64,000 bases of DNA. It comes from Domibacillus indicus (GTDB lineage: Bacteria; Bacillota; Bacilli; Bacillales; Domibacillaceae). The DNA lies in the NCBI RefSeq assembly GCF_023715895.1, contig NZ_JAMBOO010000002.1, forward strand, positions 124,001-188,000, given 5' to 3'. Below the pieces are notes generated by a model. The model was not told the DNA's origin and did no database searches. It was given only the letters and a program-made list of their open reading frames with translations. Below, piece by piece: positions 3,610 to 40,504 of this stretch. Within the stretch, counting starts at the first letter, position 1. Each line of letters opens with the position of its first letter. Position numbers and translations under genes: made by a program.

Positions 3610-4701
3610 TCACCTCTTATTGTATACGTACTTAACAATGGCTGAAGCAATCTCGTCAACCGGCACTACATCATCAACAAGGTGTGTGGCAATGGCCGCT
3701 TTTGGCATTCCATATACTACACATGTTTCTTTCGCTTCCGCAATGGCCTTCACAGTTCCGGTTTCTTTTAATGTAATAAGCCCTTCTGATCCATCCGACC
3801 CCATCCCAGTCATAATAACTGCTGTTTTTTCAAGGTCATGTATAGCGGCCGCAGAACGGAATGTTGCATTGGCTGCAGGACGGTGTCCGCCTTCCGGCGG
3901 CAATTCATCTAATGCAATAACGGTCGATGTCCCTGTTTTTTTCAAGCGCAGATGCTTTCCACCCGGTGCGATATACACTGTGCCATTTTGCAGAATTTCA
4001 CCATCTTCGCCTTCTTTCACTCGAATTTCGGATAGTGAATTAAGCCTGTCTGACAAAGACTTTGTAAAACCAGGCGGCATGTGCTGAACAATCACAACCG
4101 GAGCCGGAAGCGAGGCTGGAAGTTTAGTCACTACATGCTGCAAGGCGCGCGGCCCTCCAGTAGAAGTCGCAATCAAAACCAGTTTATTCATTTTTTTGCT
4201 GCGAACCTGGGGACGCACAGTGTTTGTCTCTGTATATTCGCTCTCAGCCGGAGGGGAAATAATAGCAGGTTTTTTTAATATAGCGGGCTTCATACTGATG
4301 TTTGCTTTTGATGCACCCAGTACTTTTTCAATCAGGATATCTTTAATTTTGTGAAGATCAAGCGAGATCGTTCCTGATGGTTTTGCAATAAAATCAACTG
4401 CGCCAAGCTCAATCGCTTTCAGTGTTGTTTCCGTTCCTTCTTTTGTTAGACTCGATAACATCACCACTGGACACGGCTGCTTTTCCATAATGGCTTTTAA
4501 AGCCTCCAGCCCATCCATTTCCGGCATTTCAATATCAAGAGTGATCACATCTGGTTTAAGCTCCAGTGCTTTTTTTACACCATCTCGGCCATTTCGGCCA
4601 AAAGCTATCACTTCAAGCTGAGGATGTTCAGATAAAAACTCGGAAATCAACTTTCTCATAAAAGCGGAGTCATCCACTACGAGAACTTTTTTTGCGTTCA
4701 T
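3610..4701 (-). CDS. cheB: CheB, receptor methylesterase
   Basis: Response-regulator methylesterase that removes methyl groups from chemoreceptor glutamates during adaptation. The N-terminal receiver domain carries Asp10-Asp11 and phospho-accepting Asp56 (TLDIEMPEMDG). After a linker around residues 135-170 comes the catalytic domain with the Ser of IATSTGGP, the His of VQHMPPGFT and the Asp of MTGMGSDGSEG, completing the Ser-His-Asp triad. The length is 363 residues against 357 in B. subtilis. The start has an AGGAGGG site. It is adjacent to flhG (2 bp) and cheA (6 bp). Confidence 0.98.
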   Translation of the reverse strand: MNAKKVLVVDDSAFMRKLISEFLSEHPQLEVIAFGRNGRDGVKKALELKPDVITLDIEMPEMDGLEALKAIMEKQPCPVVMLSSLTKEGTETTLKAIELGAVDFIAKPSGTISLDLHKIKDILIEKVLGASKANISMKPAILKKPAIISPPAESEYTETNTVRPQVRSKKMNKLVLIATSTGGPRALQHVVTKLPASLPAPVVIVQHMPPGFTKSLSDRLNSLSEIRVKEGEDGEILQNGTVYIAPGGKHLRLKKTGTSTVIALDELPPEGGHRPAANATFRSAAAIHDLEKTAVIMTGMGSDGSEGLITLKETGTVKAIAEAKETCVVYGMPKAAIATHLVDDVVPVDEIASAIVKYVYNKR

Positions 4702-5588: not shown

Positions 5589-6700
5589 GCTTTCCAGTCC
5601 TCGAAAATGTAATTTACTAATTGTTCCGTCGAAAGTTCGATCAAGTCATCTGGTACATTTTGACCATTGGAAACGAAAGCAGTATGCCGGTTATACGTAT
5701 GCATTAAATTAAGGAGAGCCCCTTTTGTTTTTGTTTCATCAACCTTTGTGAAAATAAATCCATCTATTCGTAAAGATGAGAAATTTTGAATAATAGCATG
5801 TAAATCTTCTTCTTTCGCTGTTGCACTTAATACGAGGAAATAAGCAGATTCTTCGGGACGCTGCATGATCAAAGGCCGAAGATCCGCCACATACTGACCA
5901 TCAAGATAGTTGCGTCCTGCTGTATCAATAAAAACAGCGTCAGCCGAGCTCAATTCCTGCATACACTGGTTCATGTCTTCTCTTGAATAAGCTACTTTCA
6001 TTGGTGCATTTAAAAGCCCGGAATACGTTTTCAGCTGCTCGATGGCTGCAATCCGGTATGTATCTGTTGTAATAAAAGCTACTTTTCGATTGAAATCAAG
6101 CACCTGCTTTGAAGCAAGCTTTGCAATGGTTGTGGTTTTTCCCACTCCCGTCGGACCGAGTAAATAAGAAAACTTTACTCCTGCTTTGTTTGATGAGCCG
6201 GAATCCGGCAGACAGCTTTTTAAATAAAGAAGTGTCCACTCCCTTATTTGCCGGGCTGTGGCTGTTTCTTTTTCGGTATGCCATTTTTCGAATAAGTAGG
6301 AAGCCGTTTGGTCAATCCATTCTTTCGCTATTCCATGCCGCTTTAATTGATCGATAGCCGGCTGCAGCATATCCGGATACAAAGCAGAAGAAGCGGTTGA
6401 TCTTTGAAGGTCCTGAATCATTTTTTTCATATCATTCATTTCATTTTTTAACTCTTCGGAAACTATGGAAGCCGGCTTTTCCTGCAAAGCCGGCCGCTTT
6501 ACTTCCGGCTGCGCAGGAAAAGCAGCGGCCGCAGGATCAACTGCTGCCACCACCTCAATGTTTTTTTTCTTAAACAAGCCGAAAATTCCACCCGAGTAAA
6601 CCGTTCTTGACTGCAAAATAACGGCCTGGGCTCCCAATTCTGCTCTGACTTTTTTCATCACTTCCGGCATAGAAGGCGCAAGATATTTTTTTACTTTCAT
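5585..6700 (-). CDS. flhF: FlhF, SRP-type GTPase for flagellar placement
   Basis: Third member of the SRP GTPase family (with Ffh and FtsY, both encoded near 44-46 kb); it marks sites of flagellar assembly. A basic N-terminal B domain (MKVKKYLAPS) leads to the NG domain with P-loop [15 protein letters not shown] near residue 183, DTYRIAAIEQL (G2), DTAGRN (G3) and TKVDETKTKG (G4 and closing loop). Length 371 against 366 in B. subtilis. It overlaps flhA and flhG by 4 bp each. Confidence 0.97.
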   Translation of the reverse strand: MKVKKYLAPSMPEVMKKVRAELGAQAVILQSRTVYSGGIFGLFKKKNIEVVAAVDPAAAAFPAQPEVKRPALQEKPASIVSEELKNEMNDMKKMIQDLQRSTASSALYPDMLQPAIDQLKRHGIAKEWIDQTASYLFEKWHTEKETATARQIREWTLLYLKSCLPDSGSSNKAGVKFSYLLGPTGVGKTTTIAKLASKQVLDFNRKVAFITTDTYRIAAIEQLKTYSGLLNAPMKVAYSREDMNQCMQELSSADAVFIDTAGRNYLDGQYVADLRPLIMQRPEESAYFLVLSATAKEEDLHAIIQNFSSLRIDGFIFTKVDETKTKGALLNLMHTYNRHTAFVSNGQNVPDDLIELSTEQLVNYIFEDWKA

Positions 6701-8733
6701 TCGATGGTCACCACCCCTGTACTTTGCACTTCCACACTTGGTTCAAGCTCATTATAAGACAGCACCGGTATTTGTGGAAAATAACGCTCTAAAAGCTGCC
6801 GTACATACATCCGAATAGCAGGAGAACAAAGAATAACAGGCGATTGCTGCATAAAAGATGCTTGTTCAACCTGCTGAGCCGTCGCTTCTAAAATACGCTG
6901 TGAATCATTTGGATCGATAGATAAATAGTTTCCATGTTCGGTTTGCTGTACACCATCTGCAATCAGTTTTTCAATTCTTCCTGACAGCGTAATAACGTTC
7001 AATGACCCGCTCTCATCTGCAAACTGCATGGTAATTTGACGGGCAAGCGCCTGCCTTACATACTCTGTCAGCAAATCGGTGTCTGAAGTCATTTTCCCAT
7101 AATCAGCCAGGGTTTCAAATATGATCGGCAGATTACGGATAGATAAGTTTTCTTTTAACAGCTTTGACAGTACTTTTTGTACTTCTCCGACAGAAAGCGG
7201 ATTTGGCGTTACTTCATCTACTAAAATCGGATATGTTTCTTTTAAATGGTCGATTAACTGCTGGGTTTCCTGGCGCCCTAAAAGTTCGTTTGCATACTTT
7301 TTAATCGTTTCCGTTAAATGAGTGGACACAACACTTGGCGGATCAACAACGGTATAGCCGAAGATTTCTGCCTGCTCCTTTGCATCTTCCGTAATCCATT
7401 TTGCCGGAAGGCCGAATGATGGCTCGATCGTGTCAATGCCTTCTACTAAATCATCTTCTTCACCAGGGCTCATTGCCAGATAATGATCCAGCAGCAGTTC
7501 CCCGCCTGCCACTTCACTGCCCTTGATTTTCATACGGTATTCATTTGGCTGAAGCTGAATATTATCCCGGATGCGGACAACCGGAATAACCAGGCCGAGC
7601 TCAAGTGCCAGCTGGCGCCTGATCATTACGATACGATCAAGCAAATCTCCGCCTTGATTTGTATCGGCGAGCGGAATTAAGCCATACCCAAATTCAAATT
7701 CAATCGGGTCTACGGTTAAAAGGTTCACCACAGATTCTGGACTTTTTAACTCTTCCATTTCTGTTTCTTCTTCAGACGGCACCGGATCCTCCAGATCTGG
7801 TTTCGGTACCCGGTTCATCCTATAGCCGCCGTATGCAAGACCGGCTGCAATAGGAATAGTTAACAGATCTGTAATAGGCGTAGCGATGCCTAACAGAAAA
7901 ATCGTTCCTGCTGCGATATACAGCATAGAAGGATAACGTAAAAGCTGTGCGGTAATTTCTTCTCCTAAATTTCCGTTAGAAGCTGCACGAGTCACAACAA
8001 TACCCGTTGCGGTTGTAATAAGCAGTGCTGGCACTTGTGAAACGATTCCATCCCCAACCGTTAAAAGAGAATAACGGGCTGCCGATTCAGCAAAAGATAG
8101 ATCCTGCTGCATCACACCGATGACCATGCCGACAATTAAGTTAATGATAACCATAATAATACCGGCAATCGCATCTCCTTTAACAAACTTTGTTGCCCCA
8201 TCCATCGCACCGTAAAAATCGGCTTCACGGCTGACTTTTTCCCGGCGCTCACGTGCCTGGGCTTCAGAAATCATCCCAGCATTCAAATCGGCATCAATAC
8301 TCATCTGTTTTCCCGGCATGGCATCGAGTGTAAACCGGGCTGCCACTTCTGATACACGCTCGGCTCCTTTTGTAATGACAACAAACTGGATGATAACCAG
8401 AATAACGAAAATAACCATCCCTACTACAACATTACCGCCAACTACGAATGTCCCGAATGTCTCGACAACGCCCCCAGCTTCGCCGTGACTCAATATGGAA
8501 CGCGTTGTCGACACATTCAGGCCAAGCCGGAATAACGTCAACAATAAAAGGAGCGACGGAAACACAGAAAACTCCAGCGCTTCTTTCATGTTCATGGAGA
8601 TGAGCAAAACGAGAAGCGCAAGAGAGATATTCATAATGATGAGCACACTTAACAGCCATGTTGGCAATGGAACGATCAGCATGGCAACGATTAAGATCAC
8701 GCTTAGTAAAACCGAGAGGTCTCTTGCTTTCAT
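6697..8733 (-). CDS. flhA: FlhA, flagellar export gate protein
   Basis: Large integral membrane component of the flagellar type III export gate; its cytoplasmic domain docks chaperone-substrate complexes. The N-terminal half has about eight membrane segments with the conserved FHIPEP-family loop (LDAMPGKQMSIDADL, residues about 145-160). The soluble C-terminal domain spans about 330-678. I chose the ATG at 8733 (678 aa; B. subtilis 677) because GGGAGAG lies 6-7 nt upstream; the longer TTG start at 8748 overlaps that Shine-Dalgarno. It overlaps flhF by 4 bp. Confidence 0.97.
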   Translation of the reverse strand: MKARDLSVLLSVILIVAMLIVPLPTWLLSVLIIMNISLALLVLLISMNMKEALEFSVFPSLLLLLTLFRLGLNVSTTRSILSHGEAGGVVETFGTFVVGGNVVVGMVIFVILVIIQFVVITKGAERVSEVAARFTLDAMPGKQMSIDADLNAGMISEAQARERREKVSREADFYGAMDGATKFVKGDAIAGIIMVIINLIVGMVIGVMQQDLSFAESAARYSLLTVGDGIVSQVPALLITTATGIVVTRAASNGNLGEEITAQLLRYPSMLYIAAGTIFLLGIATPITDLLTIPIAAGLAYGGYRMNRVPKPDLEDPVPSEEETEMEELKSPESVVNLLTVDPIEFEFGYGLIPLADTNQGGDLLDRIVMIRRQLALELGLVIPVVRIRDNIQLQPNEYRMKIKGSEVAGGELLLDHYLAMSPGEEDDLVEGIDTIEPSFGLPAKWITEDAKEQAEIFGYTVVDPPSVVSTHLTETIKKYANELLGRQETQQLIDHLKETYPILVDEVTPNPLSVGEVQKVLSKLLKENLSIRNLPIIFETLADYGKMTSDTDLLTEYVRQALARQITMQFADESGSLNVITLSGRIEKLIADGVQQTEHGNYLSIDPNDSQRILEATAQQVEQASFMQQSPVILCSPAIRMYVRQLLERYFPQIPVLSYNELEPSVEVQSTGVVTIE

Positions 8734-8755
8734 TTTTTTCTCTCCCAACGAAAAA

Positions 8756-9832
8756 CTACAATTTATTTTTTATTCGATATACGTATGCTAGAATTTCAGC
8801 AATGGCTTTAAAGAATTCTTCCGGTACTGAATCACCTATTTCCGTTTGATCATGAAGAGCCCGTGCAAGCGGCCGGTTTTCAACCATCATGACGTCATTT
8901 TCTTTAGCCACAAATTTAATTTTTTGCGCTAGATAATCTGTGCCTTTGGCCACCACATACGGTGCATCCCTTTTGGATTCATCATACTTTAGCGCAATGG
9001 CGTAGTGAGTCGGGTTGGTGATCACGACGTCTGCATTCGGCACCTCCTGCATCATTCGGCGCATAGCCATTTCTCTTTGCGTCTGGCGGATTTTTGATTT
9101 AATGAGCGGGTCACCTTCTGAGTTTTTATGCTCATCTTTAATATCCTGCTTGGACATACGCAGGCTTTTTTCGAAATCATACTTTTGGTAAAGGTAATCC
9201 AAAACCCCTAAAACGAGTAATGCGGCGGCGGCGGCTAAACCCATTTGTACAGTAATGGAACCGACAAACGGAAGCGTATCTTGAATAGGCTTTAGGGCCA
9301 GCTTCAACACTTCATCCATATTTGACCATAAAATAACAAAAGCGGCCGTACCGACAAAACCAATTTTCAAGATTGATTTTAACAACTCTACAATCGCCCG
9401 CATCGAAAAAATCCGTTTAAATCCTTTGATCGGATCCAGCTTGTCAAGCTTTGGTTTAATAGGCTCGCCTGTAACCAGCCATCCTACCTGGGCATAATTG
9501 GCAACGACTCCCGCCGCCACTGCCGCTGCCATAAATGGACCGGCAATCATTAAACCTTGTTCCATAATTTCAAATACAATCGTTTTTAAGTTTGCTTCCG
9601 TGACTTCCATCATCATGTAAGTTTTAAGCGAATGTTCAAACATATGAAAAATGTTTCTGCCCATTGACGCAGCAAACAGCGATAAAAAACCGAACAGAAC
9701 GAGCAGGCTGACCGCTGTGTTTAAGTCCTGACTTTTTGTAACCTGGCCTTTTTTACGGGAATCCTGCTTTTTTTTCGGCGTGGCTTTTTCTGTTTTTTCA
9801 CCTGCAAAAAACTGTAAATCTAATTTAAGCAC
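8756..9832 (-). CDS. flhB: FlhB, export specificity switch protein
   Basis: Membrane protein of the flagellar export gate that switches substrate class from hook to filament after self-cleavage. It has the LDLQFFAGEKTEKATPKK N-terminus, four membrane segments, and the autocleavage motif NPTH within VVITNPTHYAIALKY near residue 264. The proposed start is the GTG at 9832 (358 aa; B. subtilis 360), with GGAGGCGG upstream formed by the end of fliR; the longer TTG at 9847 lies in that site. FliK, its partner in the switch, is encoded upstream in the same operon. Confidence 0.96.
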   Translation of the reverse strand: MLKLDLQFFAGEKTEKATPKKKQDSRKKGQVTKSQDLNTAVSLLVLFGFLSLFAASMGRNIFHMFEHSLKTYMMMEVTEANLKTIVFEIMEQGLMIAGPFMAAAVAAGVVANYAQVGWLVTGEPIKPKLDKLDPIKGFKRIFSMRAIVELLKSILKIGFVGTAAFVILWSNMDEVLKLALKPIQDTLPFVGSITVQMGLAAAAALLVLGVLDYLYQKYDFEKSLRMSKQDIKDEHKNSEGDPLIKSKIRQTQREMAMRRMMQEVPNADVVITNPTHYAIALKYDESKRDAPYVVAKGTDYLAQKIKFVAKENDVMMVENRPLARALHDQTEIGDSVPEEFFKAIAEILAYVYRIKNKL

Positions 9833-9833
9833 G

Positions 9834-10610
9834 TTATCCGCCTCCAAAAATCGTCATTAAATCCCGCATAGTGAGAAGCATCATTTGAAACAACTGACGA
9901 ACAAGCGTGAAAATCACACCCATTACAATAAACATAACCGCAAAGGCCACCCCAATTTTCAATGGAAAGCCCACTGCGAAGATGTTTAGCTGCGGCACGG
10001 TTCGTGCTACCACACCAAGCATCACATCCGTTAAAAATAAAACGGCCACTACAGGCATTGACATTTGAAAAGCGATCACAAATACACTGCTGAACGTTCT
10101 CGCCATATAATGAGCCGTTTCCTGACTGCCAAATGGAAAAGTGAGCTCGTTGATCGGGATGAGCTGGTAGCTGTAGAAAATGCCATCTAAAATAAGGTGA
10201 TGCCCATTTAAGGCAAGCAGCATCAATAACGAAAACATGTATAAATATTGGCCCATCAGCGGGCTTTGAACCCCTGTCTGCGGGTCAATAACATTGGCAA
10301 TCGCAAAACCCATTTGAAAATCAATAAAGCCGCCGGCAATTTGAATAGCCGATAAAACGATAAATCCGGCCATGCCAATTAAAAGACCCACCATAGCTTC
10401 TTTTAAAATAAGCAAAATATATTCCCCATTGATTTCAATGGGTGCGGCATCGATCGTGTAATACATCGTCCAGGCAAGCACTAACGAAAAAGCAGCCCGG
10501 TGCTGTGCGGGAATGGTCCGATATGAAAACAACGGCATGGTCACAAAAAAAGCCGATATACGGACAAGGACAAGCAAAAAAAGAGATGGATCTGGCATTA
10601 ATTCTGTCAT
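9834..10610 (-). CDS. fliR: FliR, flagellar export gate protein
   Basis: Integral membrane subunit of the FliPQR export core complex, which forms the helical export channel at the centre of the MS ring. The 258-residue protein (B. subtilis 259) is almost entirely hydrophobic with about six predicted membrane segments, and has the family block GFAIANVIDPQTGVQSPLMG in the middle. Its stop codon is 1 bp before the flhB start, and its final Gly codons supply the flhB Shine-Dalgarno. It lies 6 bp after fliQ. Confidence 0.96.
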   Translation of the reverse strand: MTELMPDPSLFLLVLVRISAFFVTMPLFSYRTIPAQHRAAFSLVLAWTMYYTIDAAPIEINGEYILLILKEAMVGLLIGMAGFIVLSAIQIAGGFIDFQMGFAIANVIDPQTGVQSPLMGQYLYMFSLLMLLALNGHHLILDGIFYSYQLIPINELTFPFGSQETAHYMARTFSSVFVIAFQMSMPVVAVLFLTDVMLGVVARTVPQLNIFAVGFPLKIGVAFAVMFIVMGVIFTLVRQLFQMMLLTMRDLMTIFGGG

Positions 10611-17499: not shown

Positions 17500-18852
17500 T
17501 TACACCTCCAATGTAACGTTTTGCAATGCTTCCTCAAAGGCAGAGAGCATTTCAGTCTCGTTCTGCTCTGCCGATTCCTGTTCCGGCTGTTTTTGTTCCT
17601 GCTGGCGCTGCTGCTGGGCACCTCGGTCAAACAGCTGCTGTTTCGTTTCCGGACTTATGATGTCCAATTTATCGATTGTCACGTTTTGCTGGCTGAATGC
17701 ATGCTTTAACTGGTGGGCATTTTGTTCAAGCAGTTCTTTCACTGTTTGAGTCGATGATAAAATTTTAGCTGTCATTACCCCGTTTTGCTGAAGCAGTTCA
17801 ATACGGAGAGAACCAAGCTGCTCCGGATAAAGCTTAATCAGCATTTTTGTTCCATTTGGCATTTTCAGCATGTTAGAGCTGCCCAAAATTTGTTCAAACT
17901 TTTGAATAAACTGCTCCATATTCATTGGCCGCGGCGTTGTTTTCACACTCATCACAAACTGTTCTGTTTTAGAGAGCGGATGCAACAACGGGTTCACAAC
18001 TTCTGCAGCCTGTGCAGCCGGCTTTACAGCAGCGGCTTTGCTTTCAGTCGATTCTCCTGGCCCGTGAATTTTTTTATAATTTGTAAATGCTGCCTGCAAA
18101 CTCGCTTGATTTACAGGAGTGGTGTTGGCTTGAAGACCATCAGCACTCTGCAGTCCCGTTTGTTTTGTTTGTGGCAGGACGTTATTAAGCTGCTGTTTTA
18201 CCAGCGCTTCTGTATTTTCCAATGCGGTTTGCAATGCTTGAAAACGAGGCTCCGGCTTTTGTATATGCTGGGCAAAATAGTTTATGAGCTGTGCTGCCCT
18301 TATGGCTGTTACGACGAATGGCTTATCGGCTTCTTTTAATAAAAGCGGCACCTGTTCACTAAGCTGATTTATTAAAGCTGTTAACTGTTCAATCAACAGC
18401 GTTTCATCTGTTTCCGGTTTGCCGGTATCCTCTAATGGGTTCTCTAAACCCGCTTCTTCTGCACTTCCACTTACTGCGTGAATCAGCTTTTGGAGGGAAT
18501 GCTTCAATGTTTCCATATCCGTTTGCAGTAGAACCGCCAGTTCTTGAAGCGTGGGCATTTCTCCTTTTTCAACAAGCTCTTCGGCTAGTGTTAAGAGCTC
18601 CGCTTTTTTTCCAACTAGTTCTTCTGCCGGCTCAGAGCCATTGGCACTATTGAACAAAGAAGCCAACAAAGCAGACAAGTCGTTGGAAGCAGTGCTTGTG
18701 GATGGACCCAAAACAGCCGGGTTTTGAACAGCTTGTTGAATAGAGCCAAGCAGCAGGCTGCCAAATCCTCCTGCGCCGCCTGCTCCGGCTGGATTTAACA
18801 GAGGTCCATTAGATAGTGATAAAGAACTAGTACCTAAAGTAATCCGCATCAT
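17500..18852 (-). CDS. fliK: FliK, hook-length control protein
   Basis: Secreted molecular ruler that measures hook length and triggers the FlhB switch. The 450-residue protein has a long low-complexity Ala/Gln/Leu/Glu-rich ruler region and a C-terminal Flg_hook domain about residues 325-410 with KMPNGTKMLIKLYPEQLGSLR and the following VMTAKI block. A Gln/Glu-rich tail follows. B. subtilis FliK has 487 residues; family sequences diverge strongly outside the C-terminal domain. It sits between ylxF and flgD as expected. Confidence 0.92.
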   Translation of the reverse strand: MMRITLGTSSLSLSNGPLLNPAGAGGAGGFGSLLLGSIQQAVQNPAVLGPSTSTASNDLSALLASLFNSANGSEPAEELVGKKAELLTLAEELVEKGEMPTLQELAVLLQTDMETLKHSLQKLIHAVSGSAEEAGLENPLEDTGKPETDETLLIEQLTALINQLSEQVPLLLKEADKPFVVTAIRAAQLINYFAQHIQKPEPRFQALQTALENTEALVKQQLNNVLPQTKQTGLQSADGLQANTTPVNQASLQAAFTNYKKIHGPGESTESKAAAVKPAAQAAEVVNPLLHPLSKTEQFVMSVKTTPRPMNMEQFIQKFEQILGSSNMLKMPNGTKMLIKLYPEQLGSLRIELLQQNGVMTAKILSSTQTVKELLEQNAHQLKHAFSQQNVTIDKLDIISPETKQQLFDRGAQQQRQQEQKQPEQESAEQNETEMLSAFEEALQNVTLEV

Positions 18853-35444: not shown

Positions 35445-36605
35445 TTATTTTACGAGACTAACGATCTTTTGCGCGCCATCTGCCATAGAATCTGCTGAAA
35501 CGATGTCAAGACCTGACTCGTTCAAGATTGCTTTACCGGCATCTACATTCGTACCTTCTAAACGTACAACAAGTGGTACGGACAGACTTACCTGCTTCGC
35601 AGCTTCTACCACACCTGTTGCAATAACGTCACATTTCATAATGCCGCCGAAAATGTTAACGAAAATACCCTTTACATTTTCATCAGACAAAATAATTTTA
35701 AATGCTTCTGTTACTTTTTCAGCTGTTGCGCCGCCCCCAACATCAAGGAAGTTAGCCGGATCGCCGCCATAATGCTTGATAATATCCATCGTTGCCATGG
35801 CAAGACCTGCACCGTTTACCATGCAGCCGATATTTCCATCAAGGGCAATGTAGCTGAGGTCATATTTTGATGCTTCGATTTCTTTTGCATCTTCTTCTTC
35901 AAGATCACGATATTCTAAAATGTCTTTATGACGGTATAGAGCATTTGAATCAAAATTCAATTTTGCATCCAGCGCCATTACTTTTCCATCACCTGTTACA
36001 ACAAGCGGATTAATTTCAGCAATAGAGCAGTCTTTTTCTACAAATGCAGTGTAAAGGCTCATCATAAATTTAACAGCTTGTCCAACAAGTTCTTTCGGAA
36101 TATTGATATTGAACGCAATACGGCGGGCCTGGTATGCGCTAAGGCCAGTTACTGGGTCAATATACTCTTTAAAGATTTTTTCTGGTGTTGCTTCGGCTAC
36201 TTCTTCAATCTCTGTTCCGCCTTCTTCAGATGCCATTAAAACAACTTGAGACGTTGCGCGGTCCAGCACTAAGCCGATATAGTATTCTTTTTTAATGTCG
36301 CATCCTTCTTCAATAAGAAGGCGCTTTACTTCTTTGCCTTCAGGACCTGTCTGGTGTGTGACTAACACTTTACCGAGGATTTCTTGTGCATATGTACGTA
36401 CTTCGTCGAGATTCTTTGCGACTTTAACGCCGCCCGCTTTTCCGCGGCCGCCCGCATGAATCTGTGCTTTGACAACGTTTACTGCTGTGCCAAGTTCTTT
36501 TGCTGCTTCAACCGCTTCTTCAACGGAAAACGCAACTTTCCCATTCGGCACGGCAACGCCGTAGCTTCTGAGAACTTCTTTCCCTTGATACTCATGAATA
36601 TTCAT
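35445..36605 (-). CDS. sucC: SucC, succinyl-CoA synthetase beta subunit
   Basis: ATP-grasp beta subunit of succinyl-CoA synthetase. The start [16 protein letters not shown] at 36605 is preceded by GGAGG at 7 nt and gives 386 residues, close to the B. subtilis length; a longer in-frame start at 36665 lies in the promoter. Motifs include [43 protein letters not shown] and the C-terminal [14 protein letters not shown]. The promoter at 36664-36692 serves both subunits, and a catabolite-type site lies further upstream. Confidence 0.99.
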
Positions 36606-36663
36606 CTTCCAGCCTCCTATCGGTCTCAAAACATAGTCTTTTTGCAAATCAGACTGCGACTTC

Positions 36664-36692
36664 ATTGTAGAGAAAAATCAAAATTATGTCCA
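36664..36692 (-). promoter_or_regulatory. sucC: Sigma-A promoter of sucCD
   Basis: Minus-strand TGGACA (36692-36687), exactly 17 bp, TACAAT (36669-36664); each hexamer matches consensus at five of six bases. It lies about 60 bp upstream of the sucC ATG and just after the ylqH terminator. Confidence 0.8.
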
Positions 36693-36702
36693 GCTTTTGA
36701 AC

Positions 36703-36734
36703 ATAAAAAATCCGCTCTTTTTTCAAGAACAGAC
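36703..36734 (-). terminator. ylqGH terminator
   Basis: On the transcript GUCUGUUCUU pairs fully (three G-U pairs) with AAGAGCGGAU around the loop GAAAA, followed by UUUUUUA. It lies 26 bp after the ylqH stop and isolates the sucCD promoter from upstream transcription. Confidence 0.78.
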
Positions 36735-36759: not shown

Positions 36760-37032
36760 TTATTTATCAAGGGACTGATCAAGACGGTATATAAAAGCGA
36801 ACACTTCGGCTACCGCTTGATATAAATCTTCTGGAATCGCTTCATTTATTTCAAGCTGTCCAAGCAGCTCAACAAGCCCTGGATCTTCTTGTATCGGAAT
36901 ATTATTTTCTTTTGCAGAGGCAATAATTTGATCAGCGATGAGTCCTTTCCCTTTTGCTTTTACAACCGGTGCTCCCACTGAGTCTGGATTATAAGAAAGA
37001 GCGGCGGCCTGCCTCCGGTTTGGCTGGTTCAT
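36760..37032 (-). CDS. ylqH: YlqH, FlhB C-terminus-like protein
   Basis: A 90-residue soluble protein resembling the cytoplasmic C-terminal domain of FlhB (EFFKAIAEILAYVYRI in FlhB here; DLYQAVAEVFAFIYRL in YlqH). It has NPDSVGAPVVKAKGKGLIADQI where FlhB has the NPTH autocleavage site, so the cleavage motif is not conserved. There is no membrane part. It overlaps ylqG by 4 bp. Function unknown; a role related to type III export specificity is inference. Confidence 0.88.
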   Translation of the reverse strand: MNQPNRRQAAALSYNPDSVGAPVVKAKGKGLIADQIIASAKENNIPIQEDPGLVELLGQLEINEAIPEDLYQAVAEVFAFIYRLDQSLDK

Positions 37033-38786
37033 ATGCGTATATCCACCCCCATATAACGATCATCATCCATAATGCGGGCAAGCGGCGGCTTTTCCTTTTC
37101 CAGCGCCGCTGGTTCCTTGAACGAAACGCCAGACAAGCGGTATCCGCCTGCTTCAAGGGCCTCCTTCAACGAATCAACAGCCGGGCTGCTTATTTTTTTC
37201 AGCAGTGGGCCCGGAATTTCCGCGGCAATGTGCAAATGCACAATCCGGTTTTGCACCTGCATGTCAATGACCGTTTGTTTTAAACGCGGCATTTCCACAT
37301 AAAACAATACACGGCAAAAATCAGCGTCAATTTTTCCGTCTGCTTTTTTCTTTCCTTCCCACTTGATCGTCACATCGCCTCTAAATTCACCAAATTGTAA
37401 AGGAGACTGCAGCACCAGCTGCTGAACAGGGCCGGATTCGGCAGACAAAATATGCTGTGCATTAAGACGGCCAACCATCTGCTCAGCAGCTTCTTTAATA
37501 GGTGCCGGCATTGTATCTGACATGAGCTTGATCAGCTCCTGCTTAACAGTCTGCGGAGCGTTTTGGACATTTTCTTTCGAGGCAAGAACGGCTTCGTGGT
37601 CCACTCCAAGAAAACGGAAGGCATCACGTAGAACCGAACTTGCCGGCGGTTCCTCAAAAGAAAGCGCATCGGCACCGATCAATACAGCCATTCTTGACGC
37701 GGCCTGGCCAGGAAGGGATACAGCGGCAGAAGAAGCCAGCTGAAGCAAGGAGGCAGCCATTTTTTGAGAAAGGGCCTGTCCTATTTCAAACCCGTCTGCG
37801 AGCTGTGCCAGCTGCTGCATCAAAGCCGGTCGTTCAGGATGCCCAAGAGGGAGGGATAAAGAAAGAGCCTGCTTAAAAGCGGTAACTGCTTTTTCAGACA
37901 CAGGACTTCCAGCCAGCTGGGACAGTGCTTGTTTAAGCAGCTGGACAGGGCGAAGTTCCGCATTCTGGTTCAAAGATGGCTCAGAGCTTCTGGCAATCCC
38001 GGCAAGCAGTGCCTCTCCATGCTGGGCTGCTAAAGAAGGATTTGCAGCCATTGATTGGCCGAGCACCCGGATGGCTGCCGCTTTTTCGGGTGTGTCGGTA
38101 CCTTGCAGCGCTGAAACCAGCTGAACCGCTTTTTCATTGGCTGTGCCTTTAAAAGCAAATGTCTCTGCTGTTTCACCAAGCAGGCGGCCGATTGCTTTGG
38201 CTGCCTCTGATTGTTTAAAGTCATTTTGTACGAGTAATTGCTGTAAAGAACCCATTTTTCCGGTCATTGAACCCGTTGAACGGGCAGCCAGCAGGGACTG
38301 GAAAACATTTTCTGTTATCGGCAAATGACGGCTCAGCATAAACCGGACCACTTCTACCCCTTCTGCTCCAGACTTCCCAAGCCATCCCGAAGCGGTTTGG
38401 ATCAGAGATTTTGAAAGAGCTGTTCCATTTTGGAGAGCCGCTGCTGTAAAAGCCATATTTTCTTTCGTTGGCTGCAGTCCCATTTTTTCAAGCAGGACAG
38501 ACACTTGATCGGCTGGAAGCTTTGCTGCCGGGTTTTCTGCCAGTACACGGAGTGAAACACCCCGATCCAAAGAAACCACTTGAAACGTATAGCGCTCTCC
38601 TGCTTGCAGCGGTGTTTCAAGCTGTGCTGTCAGCTTTTGGCCAAGCGCTGCGATTTCGGCCATTTGTCCGGGTAAAAGCTTGATGGTTTTACCAGAAAAA
38701 ATATGCCCTTCTTTCAATATGTCAATCGGGCTGCGCGCCTCCTGCAGCCGCACGCCTCTTTGAAGGGCCTGCTGCCCAATTTCCAT
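37029..38786 (-). CDS. ylqG: YlqG, FliK-like protein of unknown function
   Basis: A 585-residue protein rich in Ala, Gln, Leu and Ser, mostly helical low-complexity sequence, with a C-terminal domain about residues 455-560 resembling the Flg_hook domain of FliK (LQSPLQFGEFRGDVTIKWEG, VLFYVEMPRLKQTVIDMQVQ, IVHLHIAAE). The N-terminal segment (IKLLPGQMAEIAALGQKLTA) may bind a partner. It occupies the position of B. subtilis ylqG (about 481 aa) and overlaps ylqH. No signal peptide is seen. Function is not established. Confidence 0.85.
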   Translation of the reverse strand: MEIGQQALQRGVRLQEARSPIDILKEGHIFSGKTIKLLPGQMAEIAALGQKLTAQLETPLQAGERYTFQVVSLDRGVSLRVLAENPAAKLPADQVSVLLEKMGLQPTKENMAFTAAALQNGTALSKSLIQTASGWLGKSGAEGVEVVRFMLSRHLPITENVFQSLLAARSTGSMTGKMGSLQQLLVQNDFKQSEAAKAIGRLLGETAETFAFKGTANEKAVQLVSALQGTDTPEKAAAIRVLGQSMAANPSLAAQHGEALLAGIARSSEPSLNQNAELRPVQLLKQALSQLAGSPVSEKAVTAFKQALSLSLPLGHPERPALMQQLAQLADGFEIGQALSQKMAASLLQLASSAAVSLPGQAASRMAVLIGADALSFEEPPASSVLRDAFRFLGVDHEAVLASKENVQNAPQTVKQELIKLMSDTMPAPIKEAAEQMVGRLNAQHILSAESGPVQQLVLQSPLQFGEFRGDVTIKWEGKKKADGKIDADFCRVLFYVEMPRLKQTVIDMQVQNRIVHLHIAAEIPGPLLKKISSPAVDSLKEALEAGGYRLSGVSFKEPAALEKEKPPLARIMDDDRYMGVDIRI

Positions 38787-38805: not shown

Positions 38806-39576
38806 TTATAGTGTGTGCATATCTTTTACAGGCGCAAATGTTTTGCGGTGCTGCGGCGTTACGCCAAATTGCTTTAATCCTTCAATATGCTCTTTCGTGC
38901 CATATCCCATATTCTTTTCAAATCCATAGCCGGGAAATTGAGCTGCATATTCTTTCATGAGCCGGTCACGAGTTACCTTGGCAATAATAGACGCTGCGGC
39001 AATAGACGCACTTTTAGCGTCCCCTTTTATAATAGCCTCCTGGCTGATGGCAGCCGGCAGCGTCATCGCATCGACAAGCAGGTGATCCGGCTGCTTTGGA
39101 AGTGATTCTACTGCAAGCATCATTGCTTTTTTAGCAGCTTCGTAAATATTGATTCGGTCAATTTCTTCTGCGCTGACAATACCGACGCCGACTGCCGCTT
39201 TTTCTATTATCAGCGCATATAGTTCATCACGGATGGATTCTTTTATTTTTTTAGAGTCATTTAACCCTTCTGGCAAAAAACCATCCGGCAGAATACATGC
39301 AGCAGCTACTACAGGGCCTGCAAGGGGCCCTCTGCCCGCTTCATCAATGCCGGCAATGCTTTGCATCCCCCGCTTCATTGCTGCCCGCTCATACGCCATC
39401 ATTTGCTCCAGGCGCTCCTGTTCATCCTTTTTCTTTTGAAGACGGCGCCTGCACGCTTTCACAGCTGCCTGTACGCCCCTTCTTTCATCTTTCTCCCACT
39501 GGGCCAGCTGGTTGTCTTCTAAGCTGCTGACAGCTGCGAGCTGCTGTTTAATTTGGGTAATCGTTTCCTTGCACAT
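38806..39576 (-). CDS. rnhB: RnhB, ribonuclease HII
   Basis: Removes ribonucleotides from DNA and RNA primers. The start MCKETITQIK at 39576 gives 256 residues (B. subtilis 255); the open frame continues upstream through the rbgA terminator and is not coding there. The N-terminal extension helix (about 1-70) precedes the catalytic domain with the Asp-Glu pair in IAGIDEAGRGPLAGPVVAAA, Asp in LLVDAMTLP, and GDAKSASIAAASIIAKVTRD and GYGTKEH. It lies after a terminator, 19 bp before ylqG is reached in the reverse order. Confidence 0.97.
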   Translation of the reverse strand: MCKETITQIKQQLAAVSSLEDNQLAQWEKDERRGVQAAVKACRRRLQKKKDEQERLEQMMAYERAAMKRGMQSIAGIDEAGRGPLAGPVVAAACILPDGFLPEGLNDSKKIKESIRDELYALIIEKAAVGVGIVSAEEIDRINIYEAAKKAMMLAVESLPKQPDHLLVDAMTLPAAISQEAIIKGDAKSASIAAASIIAKVTRDRLMKEYAAQFPGYGFEKNMGYGTKEHIEGLKQFGVTPQHRKTFAPVKDMHTL

Positions 39577-39627
39577 GTTTTCTTGGCTCCTTATCTGTAT
39601 TATCGGCTTTTTTTCTTTTTTTTCCAC

Positions 39628-39660
39628 AAAAAAACGCGAAGGAAGTCCTTCACGCTTTTT
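39628..39660 (-). terminator. rbgA terminator overlapping its stop codon
   Basis: The transcript folds AAAAAGCGUGAAGG with CCUUCGCGUUUUU (one G-U and one U-G pair) around ACUU, followed by more U. The rbgA stop codon UGA at 39652-39650 lies inside the stem, so a terminating ribosome could affect folding. Confidence 0.8.
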
Positions 39661-40504
39661 GTGGCGGAATATCAAACGTAAGGCGGCCAAACTGCGTTGT
39701 ACGCACATCACGAATAATGACATCCGTTACCTTGTCGTAATCAATGCCGCCTCCTGTAGATAGGCAGCCGCGCCGTTCACCAACTTGTTCAAAAACAACC
39801 GCCATGTCTTCCGGAAGCTCTCTGTAGCCATAGCGCTCTTGAAGCCGCGACGGATACTCGCTCTCTAAAAAACGAAGCCCCCAGATCGCCACATCCTGCA
39901 AATTCAAGATCGCGTCTTTTATGGCACCCGTCAAGGCTAATTTGTAGCCGATTTCTGGGTCTTCGAACTTTGGCCATAAAATACCCGGCGTATCCAAAAG
40001 CTCCAGGTTTTTAGCGGTTTTAATCCACTGCTGTGCTTTTGTTACGCCTGGCATATTACCGGTTTTGGCAATGTTTTTTTTCGCAATCCGGTTAATGAGT
40101 GTTGACTTGCCGACATTTGGAATACCAACAATCATCGCTCTTATTGCCCGCGGCTTCATTCCCCGTGCGCGCATTCGATCCCATTTTTCTTTTAAAATGC
40201 TCTCAGCTGCTTTTACAATTTTGTCGAGTCCGCTGCCCGCCTGGGAATTCACCGAAACGGCTTCAATGCCTTTTTCTTTGAAGTAAGCAATCCACTCTTT
40301 TGTCATAATCGGATCTGCCATATCCTCTTTGTTTAGAATGACAAGCCGCGGCTTCTGGTTTAAAATCTCATCGATCATCGGATTGCGCGAAGACAAGGGC
40401 AGGCGTGCATCCACCAATTCAAAAATGATATCAACGAGTTTTAATTTCTCTGTTACCTGCCGTCTTGCTTTGGCCATATGGCCTGGAAACCACTGTATTG
40501 TCAA
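39650..40504 (-). CDS. rbgA: RbgA (YlqF), ribosome biogenesis GTPase
   Basis: Essential GTPase for a late step of 50S subunit assembly. It is circularly permuted as the family requires: G4 motif LNKEDMAD near residue 60 comes before G1 [17 protein letters not shown] near 122-138, then the G2 Thr in [10 protein letters not shown] and G3 [10 protein letters not shown]. The first residues [16 protein letters not shown] are the family N-terminus with the catalytic His9. Length 284 (B. subtilis 282). It lies between lepB and rnhB, downstream of other ribosome genes. Confidence 0.98.

Follow-up and report, generated by a model that had tools for sequence, protein, structure and literature searches.

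YlqG and YlqH, a FliK-type protein and a free-standing FlhB tail encoded by overlapping genes, as a probable partner module of the flagellar export switch

We propose that the adjacent genes ylqG and ylqH of Domibacillus indicus encode a partner module that acts on the FliK-FlhB switch of flagellar export, a reading to which sequence comparison and predicted folds together lend a probability of roughly 0.6. This switch is best known from Salmonella. In many flagellated Bacillota, two of its parts seem to have been excised and retained as a pair of genes that overlap. Profile and locus comparisons establish the homology of YlqH to the C-terminal domain of FlhB and the pairing of the two genes, and surveys of genomes show that the pair is tied to flagella.

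The ylqG-ylqH locus and its products

The open reading frames (ORFs) of ylqG and ylqH lie on the minus strand of the window (the whole 64-kb stretch of DNA analysed here, positions 124001-188000 of contig G000:C104), with the coordinates that an earlier, sequence-only reading had given them (Table 1). The gene order on that strand is rnhB, ylqG, ylqH, sucC. The sequence-only reading had described a 4-bp overlap of ylqG and ylqH beside rnhB and sucC, and this was borne out: the ORF coordinates place an ATGA at the junction, and both neighbours are named by Pfam. It had also placed the pair outside the flagellar operon, which is right, though codY and the fla/che operon are close, at about 1 to 27 kb of the same window. 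In that run, Pfam names codY, a flgB-type gene, fliF, fliG, fliI, a flgE-type gene, fliM and cheA, and the fliK place of the operon is filled by a canonical fliK, which is present besides YlqG. A promoter-like site 5' of sucC comes from a consensus scan only. Rfam, used at gathering thresholds, gave no match within the 64-kb window. The size of YlqG had been considered notable, as it exceeds that of the Bacillus subtilis protein, which we take to be 481 residues long; 585 residues proved ordinary, the proteins at 78 loci ranging from 395 to 710 residues with a median of 618.

Table 1. Features of the ylqG-ylqH locus and the canonical flagellar genes used for comparison (positions in the window)
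Feature	Position	Strand	Description	Basis
ylqG	37029..38786	-	585 aa; OB-like N-terminus, helical middle, FliK-type switch (T3S4) domain, end GVDIRI	ORF, model, fold matches, Flg_hook in relatives
Five-stranded OB-like barrel, YlqG residues 18-89	38520..38735	-	predicted	AF2 model
T3S4 / FliK-C fold, YlqG residues 467-559	37110..37388	-	predicted	model fold matches
VDIRI, last five YlqG residues	37032..37046	-	FliK-type end	conserved motif
ATGA overlap	37029..37032	-	ylqG stop / ylqH start	ORFs; conserved
ylqH	36760..37032	-	90 aa; free-standing FlhB cleaved C-terminal domain (FlhX type), without NPTH and without membrane part	
Terminator-like hairpin	36710..36734	-	3' of ylqH	consensus scan only
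rnhB	38806..39723	-	ends 19 nt before ylqG; conserved neighbour	ORF coordinates; Pfam
sucC	35445..36665 (longest ORF; likely start 36605)	-	conserved downstream neighbour	Pfam
Canonical fliK of fla/che operon	17500..18852	-	ends VTLEV, not Phi-D-x-x-Phi	PF02120, 57.9 bits
Canonical flhB	8756..9847	-	363 aa; NPTH at residue 278	
flhA	6697..8748	-		profile match at contig positions 130733-132691

Among close relatives the pair is conserved. YlqG was found in all 24 genomes of a family sample, each time with an adjacent YlqH; the spacing is -4 nt in 23 of them, L019 being the exception, with an out-of-frame ATG at the overlap. We also read the best 80 of 498 loci found, referred to below as the named loci, a set that is biased toward close relatives. 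Among these best 80, the YlqG ORF ends in ATGA at 79, rnhB is present at 78 and sucC at 79, and the overlap ATG is also in frame with YlqH at 67 or 76 of the 80, depending on whether a narrow or a wider YlqH pattern is applied. The four misses of the wider pattern comprise one caused by the position filter (L134), two with the ATG out of frame (L148 and L168) and one without a YlqG ORF (L191). In L148 and L168, a length change in an A run near positions 3978-3990 puts the overlap ATG out of the ylqH frame, which may reflect a sequencing error or slippage. The middle region of YlqG is variable, YlqH is strongly conserved, and the overlap is conserved across many genera. The earlier reading of the two proteins as a conserved pair, related to FliK and to the tail of FlhB but standing alone, is supported and strengthened by the present analysis.

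YlqH matches PF01312 (Bac_export_2) only at model positions 262-335, the last 74 positions of the model (E = 4.5e-19), and the N-terminal membrane domain is absent from this 90-residue ORF, which matches the tail of the model alone. Its matches in the PDB are solved FlhB C-terminal domains, with a best E value of 1.6e-12. The NPTH autocleavage motif was found in none of the 46 stand-alone tails examined, YlqH included, and the FlhB of the window has one. YlqH aligns with the piece of this FlhB that follows the NPTH site (85 residues). Because the alignment lies past NPTH, and because the tails do not carry the motif, YlqH corresponds to the cleaved domain of FlhB, produced as a protein of its own. 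That YlqH has neither NPTH nor a membrane part had been noticed in the window before, and the 46 tails and the Pfam match now confirm it. Against TIGR00789 (flhB_rel), YlqH aligns over positions 2-83 of 84 with a score of 98.5 bits, below the cut-off of 117.35; judged by these scores, it is an FlhX-type protein that falls outside the TIGR00789 equivalog. For this group the cut-off seems a strict one: only 1 of the 249 genomes of a phylum sample has a match above it, and many stand-alone tails are among the matches listed. Since so few genomes pass it, annotation by TIGR00789 will miss most stand-alone tails.

YlqG is less easily placed. The protein of the window has no meaningful match in Pfam or NCBIfam and reaches no family threshold; its earlier description as FliK-like, which is not visible in this protein by either collection, is upheld by its relatives and by its predicted fold. 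Flg_hook (PF02120) was detected weakly in 12 of 18 YlqG relatives (E up to 0.1, best 2.8e-5) and fell on the YlqG locus in 4 of the 24 family genomes (G008, G005, G010 and G014), always below the cut-off. Of the 24 FliK proteins of the family, 12 were compared with a profile of the YlqG C-terminal part, and 11 of these matched at E <= 0.001 (E values scaled to 1000 sequences). Whole-length comparison by hhalign gave nothing for YlqG against the FliK of its own family, and nothing for FliK against FliK2, the product of a second pair described below. YlqG and FliK2 were aligned by hhalign with 97.7% probability (E = 1.9e-12) over 157 columns of the C-terminal part. A weak match to DUF6240 (PF19753) was observed in 5 of 18 YlqG proteins (best 0.0013), and this family is a possible further relative.

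The AF2 model of full-length YlqG has an overall pLDDT of 67.5. Its predicted N-terminal barrel best matches the RPA trimer core (Z up to 8.0, rmsd 2.4, 69 aligned); because many unrelated OB folds tie, we claim only an OB fold for this part. An OB profile matched only 3 of 22 phylum tail partners at E up to 0.1, and although several of the partners look alike by eye, we do not extend the OB assignment to all of them. The C-terminal part of the full model matched PscP (5cuk) with Z 7.1 and rmsd 3.3 over 82 aligned residues. Since OB folds filled the fold search with the full model, the C-terminal domain was modelled alone, from 63 sequences and with a pLDDT of 80. When 998 of Foldseek's first 1000 PDB chains were ranked by VIA-align Z, the PscP switch domain (5cuk) came first (Z 6.0, rmsd 3.3, 78 aligned) and FliK-C (2rrl) second (Z 5.6, rmsd 4.1, 80 aligned), tied at 5.6 with an unrelated chain in third place. 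Foldseek itself put 5cuk at rank 1 (E = 0.012) and 2rrl at rank 9 (E = 0.13), and a profile of the C-terminal domain found, among PDB sequences, only FliK-C (2rrl; E = 0.34). The fold scores are moderate overall (Z 5.6-7.1, Foldseek E 0.012-0.16). From the Flg_hook matches of the relatives, the predicted fold, the profile matches to FliK and the C-terminal end considered next, the assignment of YlqG as a FliK-type T3S4 protein with an OB-like N-terminus is well supported, by several results of moderate strength.

The YlqG of the window ends in GVDIRI, and E. coli FliK ends in GVDIFA. An end of the form Phi-D-x-x-Phi is present in all 79 YlqG proteins of the named loci, VDIRI being the commonest (29 of 79), and in all 24 of the family sample. 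Among 404 other ORFs, taken as mechanical frames of at least 200 codons, a single one has such an end, and that one is FliK2. Across the phylum, 19 of 22 tail partners end in Phi-D-x-x-[VIL], and all 22 match a pattern that also admits N and a terminal A; of the phylum FliK proteins, 18 of 30 match the D form when A is admitted as the last residue. None of the 24 canonical FliK proteins of the family ends in Phi-D-x-x-Phi, although a less strict, N-type end such as LNMEV occurs in 7 of them.

The idea that FliK loses this tail where YlqG has it was considered and rejected. Among Bacilli, FliK ends in Phi-D-x-x-[VILA] in 6 of 16 cases without the pair versus 1 of 10 with it (Fisher p = 0.19), and the single with-pair match, LIDEEV, looks accidental. 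If N is allowed for D, the Bacilli are levelled as well (6/16 without versus 5/10 with the pair), and in the phylum the contrast is absent (10/17 without versus 8/13 with, p = 1.0). One row of this comparison (G527) gave a 13-residue end and was scored as a miss.

Association of the pair with flagellar genes

The pair follows the flagellar export genes across the genomes sampled. In a class sample of 299 genomes, 213 were scored FlhB+, i.e., with a Bac_export_2 match over the cut-off, and 86 FlhB-. A profile search detected YlqG in 155 of the 213 FlhB+ genomes versus 0 of the 86 FlhB- genomes (Fisher p = 2e-36, kinship ignored). The sequence-only reading had held that presence of the pair in species without flagellar export genes would argue against a flagellar role; such cases were looked for, and none was found among the FlhB- genomes, an outcome in favour of that role. 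Three of these with weak PF01312 matches (G056, G188 and G212) were set aside, the matches covering model positions 16-216, not the tail.

All 155 genomes with YlqG have at least two Bac_export_2 matches. Twenty FlhB+ genomes have a single match, and YlqG is absent from all of them; a further 38 FlhB+ genomes have at least two matches and no YlqG match. These are counts of matches, and the second match may not be a stand-alone tail in every genome. The pair is dispensable for having flagella, as 20 of the 213 FlhB+ genomes have one Bac_export_2 match and 58 of the 213 are without detectable YlqG. In the phylum sample of 249 genomes, FlhA is found in 209 and TIGR00789 in 209; the two sets, compared by eye, differ by one genome each way (G342 and G551). 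With a tail match and no FlhA, G342 was a candidate for a pair without flagella and was dropped on account of its six Flg_bb_rod matches. With these matches it is a flagellate, its lack of FlhA probably reflecting an assembly gap.

A second pair lies in the same Domibacillus genome, outside the window (L063:9459-13244, contig G000:C116), between flgM and flgK and hence inside the late flagellar operon. FliK2 is 735 residues long, matches Flg_hook with 19.5 bits (below the cut-off) and ends in GFDLTI; FlhX2 is a 94-residue FlhB tail, and its gene overlaps the FliK2 gene by ATGA. The order past flgM is FliK2, FlhX2, a FliS-family gene, flagellin, a DUF327 gene, a putative flgN and flgK. The FliK2-FlhX2 overlap was the same in all six loci read in the genus, and 12 of 13 Domibacillus genomes had Flg_hook matches in FliK2-sized frames. 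Because this duplicate sits among flagellar genes, it independently supports a flagellar role of the pair.

The pairing also extends beyond the family. Thirty phylum loci were read, of which 22 gave a tail with an upstream ORF and 8 had tails that missed the search pattern; three of the 22 loci analysed are from Bacilli, one of them being YlqG of the Domibacillus family itself. Among 13 chosen genomes with a stand-alone tail, 12 carry two Flg_hook proteins (G354 has one only). The second protein is encoded no more than a few hundred bases away from the tail in all 12 and scores over the Pfam cut-off in 7 of the 12. Genomes with a single TIGR00789 match, here taken as FlhB, have exactly one Flg_hook protein in 17 of 17 cases, and all 17 have FlhA. 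Both sets were chosen by hand, the 17 from about 56 single-match genomes and the 13 from genomes with a tail among the matches listed, as was a further set of 29. In the 30 chosen genomes, the tail and a second T3S4 protein go hand in hand.

A proposed role and its alternatives

Work on Salmonella FliK is reported to show that the fold spanning residues 301-350 and the last five residues matter for switching (PMC10965912), and FliK-C is reported to bind FlhB-C (PMC6972891). According to a 2026 paper, it is the FliK-dependent removal of the cleaved FlhB domain that flips the switch, and AlphaFold modelling in the same paper led to the proposal that the terminal residues of FliK make the contact and eject this domain (PMC13344023).

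We suggest that YlqG and YlqH form a module, probably cytosolic, whose two pieces correspond to the parts that touch each other in the switch of flagellar export specificity. Since the pair consists of just these two parts, with no evident ruler and no membrane anchor, a soluble YlqG-YlqH complex acting on the switch would be expected. The overlap suggests that the two genes are co-translated, and YlqG would bind YlqH as FliK-C binds FlhB-C. At the gate, YlqH might then take the place of the FlhB domain in soluble form, with YlqG holding, loading or removing it, which is the weakest step of the scheme; rather than measure the hook, the pair would tune or reset the switch from early to late export. 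We put this more specific scheme, of a stand-in and a reset, forward tentatively, the odds running somewhat against it. YlqH may replace the FlhB domain, be ejected in its place or serve as a decoy. Replacement is favoured because HP1575 of Helicobacter, a homologue of the FlhB C-terminus, has reportedly been described as a "spare part."

A broader version, which we regard as speculative and rather doubtful, is that many Bacillota have a second, soluble and reusable switch, in which a YlqG-type protein ejects or reloads the FlhB domain or YlqH and so allows export specificity to be reset or made filament specific. The Domibacillus duplicate, with its own FliS-family chaperone and flagellin, would in that case serve a second flagellin.

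The substitution P457Q in ylqG has been recorded in four evolved B. subtilis clones, from populations D and F, all marked as swarming and always carrying other mutations as well (PMC11523185). The swarming of these clones counts against the proposed role of the pair.

YlqH has the size and the fold family of the cleaved FlhB domain, the proposed contact of FliK (PMC13344023), and these properties would also suit a decoy: YlqH could be a soluble bait that occupies the switch domain or the terminus of canonical FliK (or YlqG) and keeps FlhB from switching before hook completion, a job that Fluke does in Salmonella by another route. We consider this unlikely. It has been argued that Gram-positives do not need a Fluke homologue (PMC13344023); the FliK proteins of the family, which are without the Phi-D-x-x-Phi end (0/24, with 7/24 of the N type), may be a poor target; and a bait leaves unexplained why YlqG is encoded together with YlqH.

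It is less probable still that YlqH only backs up the cleaved domain of FlhB, with YlqG as its chaperone or as an unrelated rider. HP1575 is a protein of the same kind, a stand-alone FlhB tail, but a simple back-up needs no particular neighbour, and the neighbour of the tail is a Flg_hook protein in 12 of the 13 chosen genomes. The view that the two genes are functionless leftovers of an ancestral FliK/FlhB duplication could draw on the variable middle of YlqG, on the flagellates from which the pair is missing and on the YlqH start that is out of frame in 2 of 80 loci; intact reading frames, a strongly conserved YlqH and an overlap kept across many genera make it very improbable. Least credible is a role in nucleic-acid transactions or ribosome assembly, which the predicted OB-like fold and the ylqF-rnhB neighbourhood might suggest (rnhB, a gene independent of flagella, adjoins in 78 of the 80 named loci), given that YlqG occurs in 0 of 86 FlhB- genomes and that FliK2-FlhX2 sits among flagellar genes.

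We therefore prefer the reading that YlqG-YlqH acts on the FliK-FlhB switch. The pair offers a small soluble system in which the proposed FliK-FlhB contact could be tested, and a pathway is suggested for ylqG and ylqH of B. subtilis.

Relation to earlier reports and known systems

FlhX is already in print (PMC10746217, PMC9321776), as is one flhX-fliK pair, that of Nitratiruptor (PMC9321776). In a paper on an Aliarcobacter genome, "ylqH" is named as one of the genes for type III secretion, apparently without a functional test (PMC9235176). Our search found no tested function of ylqG or ylqH in the open-access literature, subscription papers being mostly outside its scope, and this agrees with the earlier remark that the role of the pair is not established. 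As far as the literature searched extends, the T3S4 assignment and the C-terminal end of YlqG are new, as are the association of the pair with flagella and with a second Flg_hook protein, as measured here, and the FliK2-FlhX2 pair of Domibacillus.

Like FlhX, or TIGR00789 flhB_rel (H. pylori HP1575, "flhB2"), YlqH is a stand-alone FlhB C-terminal domain without a membrane part; it differs in its score, 98.5 bits against a cut-off of 117.35, and HP1575 is likened to it by description, not by sequence. With FlhB itself, YlqH shares the C-terminal domain, whereas the membrane part and NPTH are found in FlhB only. YlqG shares with the hook-length protein FliK the T3S4 fold, as predicted, and the extreme C-terminus, but it has a predicted OB-like N-terminus in place of the ruler and is encoded outside the fla operon. 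A folded N-terminus, as predicted, speaks against the unfolded and exported ruler region that a hook ruler has there. The switch-domain fold is also shared with the needle-length proteins PscP and YscP (SctP), and 5cuk is the best C-terminal PDB match of YlqG; these are, however, injectisome proteins, with 11-12% identity to YlqG in the aligned part. The Nitratiruptor flhX-fliK pair, although it belongs to another phylum and its FliK may be either a ruler or of the YlqG type, resembles ylqH-ylqG in that a tail and a fliK are named together outside the main flagellar cluster (PMC9321776).
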